Shown: one piece after another, positions 7,844 through 31,703 of the stretch
Layout of the letters: the number at the start of each line of letters is the position of its first letter
How positions within the stretch are numbered: the stretch's first letter is position 1
Source: Streptoalloteichus hindustanus
GTDB lineage: Bacteria > Actinomycetota > Actinomycetes > Mycobacteriales > Pseudonocardiaceae
NCBI RefSeq assembly: GCF_900129375.1
Contig: NZ_FQVN01000009.1
Span: 62,001-126,000 of the forward strand
DNA length: 64,000 nt
Reading direction: 5' to 3'
Translations under genes and position numbers: made by a program
The notes under the pieces: model-generated
Databases searched by the model: none
Seen by the model: only the letters and a program-made list of their open reading frames with translations
Told to the model about the DNA's origin: nothing

Positions 7844-7864
7844 AGCCGAGGTCCTTCGTGCAAG

Positions 7865-7892
7865 CCCTCGCGAGGAAAATCCCTCGCGAGGG
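7865..7892 (+). terminator. Hairpin terminator after the BpsA-like gene
   Basis: CCCTCGCGAGG (7865-7875), loop AAAATC, CCTCGCGAGGG (7882-7892), 22 nt after the stop codon. Each arm is itself nearly palindromic around TCGCGA. There is no long U tract, as is usual in such high-GC genomes. Confidence 0.65.
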
Positions 7893-7920
7893 CGAAATCC
7901 CCACTCCTTTGTGGACGGTG

Positions 7921-8048
7921 TTGTCCACAGCCTCGTGAGTTGTCCACAGGGGACAGTCGTGGTCTGGTGGCGCCCCGTCGTTCGCCGATAGGCTGGAGCG
8001 GGGCTCGCCCCCCGGGACGGGTGGGGGCTGTCCCCGGCCAGGGGTGGG
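7921..8048 (+). repeat. Dispersed DnaA-box-like element, copy 1
   Basis: TTGTCCACAG lies at 7921-7930 and again at 7940-7949 (19-bp spacing). After a 34-bp gap comes a 48-bp GC-rich core at 7984-8031, then a GGGGTGGG tail. The core is identical to the reverse complement of 31593-31640, and the box spacing and the gap are also identical there. It lies between the convergent ends of the BpsA-like gene and the GGDEF-EAL gene. TTGTCCACA matches the actinobacterial DnaA-box consensus as I know it. Function is unknown. Confidence 0.8.
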
Positions 8049-31575: not shown

Positions 31576-31703
31576 GTCCACCCCACCCCGGAACAGCCCC
31601 CACCCGTCCCGGGGGGCGAGCCCCGCTCCAGCCTATCGGCCGAGCACAGCCCGCCACCACGCCAGCACAACCCGCTGTGGACAACTCGGGAAGGTGTGGA
31701 CAA
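31576..31703 (-). repeat. Dispersed DnaA-box-like element, copy 2 (inverted)
   Basis: On the minus strand TTGTCCACAC (31703-31694) and TTGTCCACAG (31684-31675) are 19 bp apart. A 34-bp gap leads to the 48-bp core 31640-31593, which is identical to 7984-8031. A GGGGTGGG tail follows. It lies between the convergent VOC gene and the DUF6912-like gene, the same context as copy 1. Confidence 0.8.

Follow-up and report, generated by a model that had tools for sequence, protein, structure and literature searches.

A dispersed intergenic repeat of Pseudonocardiaceae that combines DnaA boxes with a putative minimal promoter

In Streptomyces, a cluster of DnaA boxes described in 2006 by Smulczyk-Krawczyszyn is reportedly tied to replication control, and is said to be a single group of TTGTCCACA boxes near oriC. 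The element presented here has the same actinobacterial DnaA boxes but is found as dispersed copies and not as one cluster, and we know of no core in common between the two. REP/BIME and MITE repeats are dispersed and intergenic, lie at gene ends, undergo bursts and form tandem pairs. Chromosomal titration boxes of Escherichia coli are, in the available part of PMC12371093, scattered single boxes that accumulate near oriC and show a lagging-strand preference. The element resembles them in comprising many non-oriC DnaA boxes that are conserved between strains and, in several genomes, denser near oriC, but differs in joining two boxes of fixed spacing to a putative -10 hexamer and a core, in its number, with as many as 142 exact core matches in one genome, and in its weakly biased direction. 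A published model, as excerpted from PMC9640692, holds that titration sites near the origin prevent premature re-initiation. The datA, DARS1 and DARS2 sites of E. coli are likewise intergenic DnaA-box sites in which boxes and spacings are kept and spacers drift; in the accessible text of PMC4585315 each is one locus with three to six boxes, the DARS core consists of three DnaA boxes, datA has an IHF site between its boxes, and IHF or Fis sites are present in datA and DARS2. The element has two direct boxes, tens of copies and a promoter-type core. Its anatomy is distinct from that of datA and DARS, and it is best explained as a dispersed DnaA-binding station for titration or buffering that would also carry a DnaA-governed minimal promoter, a reading to which we give a probability of about 0.5. 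A published description of the element was not found in the literature searched, whose reach stopped short of most subscription journals.

The window, a 64-kb stretch of the Streptoalloteichus hindustanus genome (7.28 Mb in 33 contigs; contig 13, positions 62001-126000), contains two inverted copies of the element, copy 1 on the plus strand and copy 2 on the minus strand, composed of the following parts:

7921..7929, plus strand: DnaA box 1 of copy 1 (TTGTCCACA, exact match)
7940..7948, plus strand: DnaA box 2 of copy 1 (TTGTCCACA, exact match), 19 bp from box 1
7949..7983, plus strand: 35-bp gap of copy 1, non-conserved, 57-58% between orthologues
7989..7994, plus strand: putative -10 hexamer TAGGCT (TANNNT) of copy 1, position from contig 13, 69989
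7995..8033, plus strand: conserved core 3' of the -10, copy 1 (G-run, GCCCCCC, G-tracts), from orthologue identity and column counts
31695..31703, minus strand: DnaA box 1 of copy 2, exact TTGTCCACA
31676..31684, minus strand: DnaA box 2 of copy 2, exact TTGTCCACA
31641..31675, minus strand: 35-bp gap of copy 2, from sequence comparison with copy 1
31630..31635, minus strand: putative -10 hexamer TAGGCT of copy 2, from the core match at contig 13, 93611-93635, minus strand
31591..31629, minus strand: conserved core 3' of the -10, copy 2, from column counts and comparison with copy 1

Direct sequence comparison bore out three features that a sequence-only reading of this DNA had pointed to: two inverted copies, boxes spaced 19 bp start-to-start, and an identical 48-bp core, with 7984-8031 matching the reverse complement of 31593-31640 in every letter. 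The box-to-core gap, as that reading held, is of equal length in both copies, but it measures 35 bp and not 34 bp, the N35 of the accompanying search pattern being right. Over the 128-bp units, the two copies are identical at 100 of 128 positions. Exact TTGTCCACA is found four times in the window, always within the two copies, compared with approximately 0.1 occurrences expected from base composition. A clear -35 was looked for by eye in copy 1 and none was found; its transcript is predicted to start near 8000. ORF lists and a simple codon-usage gene caller agree that both copies lie in convergent spacers. Copy 1 is flanked by a plus-strand gene without an NCBIfam match and by a PAS/GGDEF/EAL gene, and copy 2 by a minus-strand gene without a match and by a small plus-strand gene that matches a FosA model weakly and far below cut-off, the product of which we take to resemble a VOC-type protein. 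Directly 5' of copy 1, at 7864-7893, lies a perfect inverted repeat of 12 nt that encloses a 6-nt loop and may be a terminator for the gene before it.

When copies are aligned on the -10, the order of parts is box 1, box 2, TANNNT, GGAGC or similar, a purine, a G-run, GCCCCCC, 4-7 bases and GGGNGGGGG, with box 2 starting 46-50 bp before TANNNT. Rows without TAGGCT or GGAGC in place were removed as chance matches, which reduced S. hindustanus from 93 to 87 copies, Streptoalloteichus tenebrarius from 81 to 78 and Goodfellowiella from 24 to 23. The 19-bp spacing is present in 42 of 57 two-box copies in S. hindustanus, 56 of 58 in S. tenebrarius and 52 of 65 elsewhere; one-box copies number 24, 8 and 22, respectively. 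At least one exact TTRTCCACA occurs on either strand within 125 bp upstream in 83 of the 87 S. hindustanus copies, and at least two in 62, giving 150 in total, compared with three exact boxes in the interval from dnaA to the adjacent called gene. By the consensus in the available portion of PMC4285127, where the box is the high-affinity DnaA box for Streptomyces and Mycobacterium, these 150 sites in 87 copies are high-affinity DnaA boxes outside oriC, and the assignment to the actinobacterial DnaA-box consensus made from the letters alone was correct. Of the 47 exact TTRTCCACA counted over 0.8 Mb of S. tenebrarius, 33 are inside elements, which fits the earlier suggestion of DnaA titration. 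The comparison with datA or DARS drawn at the same time is not supported in the strict sense: column counts of 94, 86 and 24 copies reveal two conserved box positions only, on which ground DARS was rejected, and datA was rejected by inspection between the boxes, where 10 bp is too short for an IHF site, which exceeds that size.

The upstream parts vary, and some copies have one box, an inverted box, or TCACCCGA/TCGGGTGA half-sites. In the G267 copies (L281-L290), the unit is longer and, as read by eye, a DnaA box is surrounded by inverted repeats (CGACAG..CTGTCG and GATCTT..AAGATC). At approximately 1500-1620 of six loci (L254, L257, L258, L260, L268 and L269), the best copy lies antisense between cydA-like and cydB-like genes, a reading made by eye at all six and named by model match for L258. 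Across the cydA-cydB spacer copies of several low-copy genomes, box 1 is mostly the palindromic TTGTGCACAAC. A G-quadruplex was considered and set aside, as by eye four G-runs are not retained among the variants.

The putative -10 was assessed in copies selected by their downstream C/G tracts alone (n=131). All 78 copies from S. hindustanus and all 53 from L271-L310 have TANNNT at a distance of 15-21 bp ahead of the C-run, compared with 0 and 1 in a shifted control, so that the TANNNT expected of a SigA/HrdB-type -10 is found in 131/131 core-selected copies versus 1/131. Of the 78, 74 have a DnaA box at the expected position with no more than one mismatch, as do 46 of the 53. The inner letters of the hexamer are variable (TAGGCT, TAGACT, TACGCT, TACGGT and others). 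The sequence-only reading had overlooked this promoter-type hexamer at the start of the core, as well as the size of the family, which runs from tens to over a hundred copies. TTG is present 16-19 bp upstream in 33/84 S. hindustanus and 20/70 S. tenebrarius copies, compared with 10 and 5 in the shifted control; at the same place it is found in 0/22 Goodfellowiella copies, and TT in 17 of 111 copies outside Streptoalloteichus versus 12 in the control.

Comparison with 78 S. tenebrarius copies identified a partner with flanks in the same order and direction for 24 of the 87 S. hindustanus copies, yielding 28 orthologous pairs because four S. tenebrarius sites are tandem. Within these pairs, box 1 is 80% identical, box 2 91%, the -10 99% and the next 39 bp 93%, whereas the gap and flanks are at 51-58%, falling to 51% right after the conserved core. 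As boxes, -10 and core were kept while gap and flanks drifted, the motifs look to be under selection at each site, in line with the earlier view that boxes, spacing and core are selected rather than recently duplicated. Gene conversion confined to boxes and core could also explain the kept motifs, but it would have to skip the gap. At sites not selected by partner, four S. hindustanus loci had their two flanks within the 0.8 Mb of S. tenebrarius, and all four sites carry the element there; one apparent empty site was rejected, the alignment showing a TACGCT copy. Sites common to S. hindustanus and Goodfellowiella are few.

An unlikely explanation for the element is a multicopy family of small-RNA genes, in which the functional part is a short RNA whose first base is the purine that follows the -10, and DnaA or another factor at the boxes only regulates it. 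TANNNT in all 131 core-selected copies, the excess of TTG over the shifted control in Streptoalloteichus, and the 93% conservation of the 39 bp after the -10, with its sharp edge, would all be expected of such genes. However, the conserved stretch allows just about 33 nt of RNA, 0/7 predicted pairs covary, folding stability is not in excess (z -0.6 to 0.8, four sequences), and the -35 signal is weak outside Streptoalloteichus, with no TTG in the 22 Goodfellowiella copies and TT little above its control over the 111 copies. A structured RNA family was rejected for want of covarying helices and of any Rfam match at threshold to the element. At gathering score, Rfam gave 0 matches in the whole window; at E of 5 or less, the nine loci searched yielded a single match above threshold, the 6C RNA (RF01066, 70.8 bits) in L059, and four below it, of which two are chance-level matches to mir-484 on the reverse strand of the core. 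In L059 (1174-1247 and 1501-1528), the 6C RNA lies approximately 250 bp from a DnaA-box pair without a core.

A search of the whole genome with the core, as the sequence-only reading had proposed, returned 85 matches with at most 3 mismatches in S. hindustanus, revealing a dispersed family; box pairs with at most 2 mismatches number 48, and both reversed patterns gave 0. S. tenebrarius (G001), which like Goodfellowiella coeruleoviolacea (G029) is a member of Pseudonocardiaceae, has 138 core matches. The sequence-only model R1 was built from 62 of 75 chosen copies, with the 13 omitted including several single-box copies, and so leans to two-box copies; it finds matches at E of 0.001 or less in 215/297 Pseudonocardiaceae genomes and 41/46 genera, and none in the other 82. 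Per-genome match numbers from R1 are lower bounds, as 11 to 13 candidates were scored per genome. Across 249 genomes of the order, Pseudonocardiaceae included, 23 have matches at E of 1e-6 or less and 23/23 are Pseudonocardiaceae. The exact core pattern occurs in at most 119/297 Pseudonocardiaceae genomes, an upper bound because the reversed control also gives matches, mostly 0 or 1, with a few genomes reaching 6 per strand. Exact core counts jump between species of one genus, from 0 to 142 in g45, and core variants are species-typical. This range within a genus, together with the 82/297 genomes without a model match, means that the element cannot be a general requirement. Among the 100 S. tenebrarius places listed, 15 same-strand tandem pairs lie less than 300 bp apart, nine of them at 192-199 bp; in the four cases compared, tandem S. 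tenebrarius loci (L100, L117, L138 and L209) correspond to a single copy in S. hindustanus.

By the simple codon-usage caller, the 85 S. hindustanus copies comprise 48 in convergent, 34 in co-directional and 3 in divergent spacers, compared with 18.5 convergent and 21 divergent expected from the intergenic shares of the S. tenebrarius sample. The 20 elements of that sample comprise 7 convergent (4.3 expected), 10 co-directional and 3 divergent (4.9 expected), with 0/20 inside called genes, and the convergent preference is weaker there than in S. hindustanus. The next downstream gene faces the element in 64/85 S. hindustanus copies, which speaks against the proposal of a remnant promoter of one gene family; the 21/85 copies with a co-directional next gene could be usable as gene promoters.

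This distribution bears on two further explanations. A mobile repeat of the REP or MITE kind, tolerated at gene ends and propagated by a mobilising enzyme that recognises boxes and core, is decidedly unlikely. The element shares with REP/BIME and MITE repeats a dispersed, intergenic, gene-end location, bursts of copy number and tandem pairs, and the core variants typical of species, the 15 close pairs among the 100 S. tenebrarius places listed, the favouring of convergent spacers (48/85 versus 18.5) and the avoidance of divergent ones (3 versus 21) are all compatible with mobility. Unlike such repeats, it has neither common terminal inverted repeats nor a palindromic unit in the two window copies, its separate motifs are conserved at orthologous sites where the gap has drifted, the 4/4 testable sites are common to S. 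tenebrarius with none empty, and the plasmid and phage collections searched gave no match. Also very unlikely is that the element insulates convergent genes from each other's transcription, or terminates it in both directions, through a DnaA roadblock and a G/C hairpin. The preference for convergent gene ends is in its favour, as is one convergent spacer, adjoining a gene that by eye resembles D-Ala-D-Ala ligase, in which the element has opposite orientations in S. hindustanus and G010 (L068, L064). However, a T-run after the core is absent by eye from either strand in both window copies, copy 1 already has the perfect 12-nt hairpin after the upstream gene, 34/85 copies lie between co-directional genes, and clustering near dnaA is left unexplained.

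Position relative to dnaA was analysed using the full core-match lists of four single-contig genomes, in which 5/5 matches inspected had a box and a -10. In G027, 17/30 core matches are no more than 0.5 Mb away from dnaA (expected 2.6, p 2.6e-11) and 28/30 are in the origin half, with no core match beyond 3.1 Mb of dnaA. The corresponding values are 11/40 (expected 3.1, p 2e-4) and 36/40 in G210, 4/7 (expected 0.7, p 0.003) and 7/7 in G132, and 4/18 (expected 1.9, p 0.11, not significant) and 16/18 in G241. The dnaA contig of S. hindustanus (contig 19) carries 27/85 copies (p 3e-4), whereas the draft G283, which has an expanded copy number, has no peak at dnaA along its dnaA contig. Mapping against oriC, also proposed beforehand, thus gave clustering in three of the four single-contig genomes, which fits DnaA titration or chromosome-level control, but no significant excess in G241 and no peak in G283. 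In the accessible part of PMC4210621, most of the conserved genes of Pseudonocardiaceae lie around oriC, and since conserved genes crowd there, the core genome may account for part of the clustering. Comparing 400 kb near with 400 kb far from oriC in G027, convergent spacer amounts to 15.7 versus 12.8 kb, total intergenic sequence to approximately 89 versus 72 kb, elements to 6 versus 0, and exact boxes to 17 versus 3 (outside elements, 12 versus 3, p 0.035). A reading in which the boxes serve some other regulator and the link to oriC simply reflects the core genome is highly improbable: box variants such as the palindromic TTGTGCACAAC of the cydA-cydB spacers and the TCACCCGA/TCGGGTGA half-sites, and the crowding of conserved genes near oriC (PMC4210621, as excerpted), would suit it, but exact DnaA boxes predominate, and in G027 even the boxes that do not belong to elements are denser close to oriC.

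For the DnaA-binding station with a minimal promoter, we infer from sequence the binding of DnaA, transcription, titration, an effect on replication and a role of the transcribed core. Two same-strand high-affinity boxes, 19 bp apart, would lie approximately 75 and 56 bp upstream of the presumed transcript start, and the TANNNT -10 followed by the fixed 39-bp G/C-tract stretch would form a minimal promoter. Tens to more than 100 copies could sequester much of the free DnaA, and copies near oriC, in the several genomes that have them, would double soon after initiation, such that DnaA is titrated and re-initiation delayed; the small promoter would then be governed by the DnaA bound at the boxes. 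Against the station stand G283 without a dnaA peak and G241 without a significant excess within 0.5 Mb, the copies between cydA and cydB, which an origin role leaves unexplained, and the fact that titration alone needs neither the -10 nor the fixed core, both of which are better conserved than box 1. Because titration leaves the strict -10 and core unexplained, we tentatively propose, as a somewhat doubtful extension, that the stations form a dedicated, origin-centred control element which couples initiator titration to transcription, with DnaA occupancy setting a short transcript at each station and the passage of a fork or polymerase resetting it; evolution would then tune the stations by copy number, from none to approximately 140 per genome. 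If the station reading is right, one bacterial family would control replication start with a modular repeat, copy numbers that differ by up to two orders of magnitude within a genus would be a natural experiment for the initiator-titration model, and non-coding control sites would be seen to multiply in a genome with their motifs still under selection.

The dnaA gene was located in 15 genomes, which include a set chosen after clusters appeared in the order-wide search, and of 14 dnaA regions read, 8 have a copy approximately 10 kb upstream of the gene: six from genus g15 (G132, G053, G204, G015, G171 and G154), together with G009 and G283. In G132, the gene beside this copy resembles N-acetylmuramoyl-L-alanine amidase, below curated cut-offs, and for the dnaA-near copies outside G132 the match rests on gene order. 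The 18-20 kb read around dnaA in G023, G034, G027, G210 and G241 contain no copy. In 13 dnaA regions (L365-L372, L374, L375 and L377-L379), 0-3 exact DnaA boxes lie between dnaA and the next called gene, and one exact box each in the 1.5 kb upstream of dnaA. Over six sets, 110/189 copies point away from dnaA, at most a weak bias (41/67 on the dnaA contig of G283, 17/27 on contig 19 of S. hindustanus, 16/30 in G027, 20/40 in G210, 11/18 in G241 and 5/7 in G132), which differs from the lagging-strand preference of the E. coli boxes. In S. hindustanus, a copy sits between a D-Ala-D-Ala ligase gene and a parB gene, 6.7 kb from dnaA.
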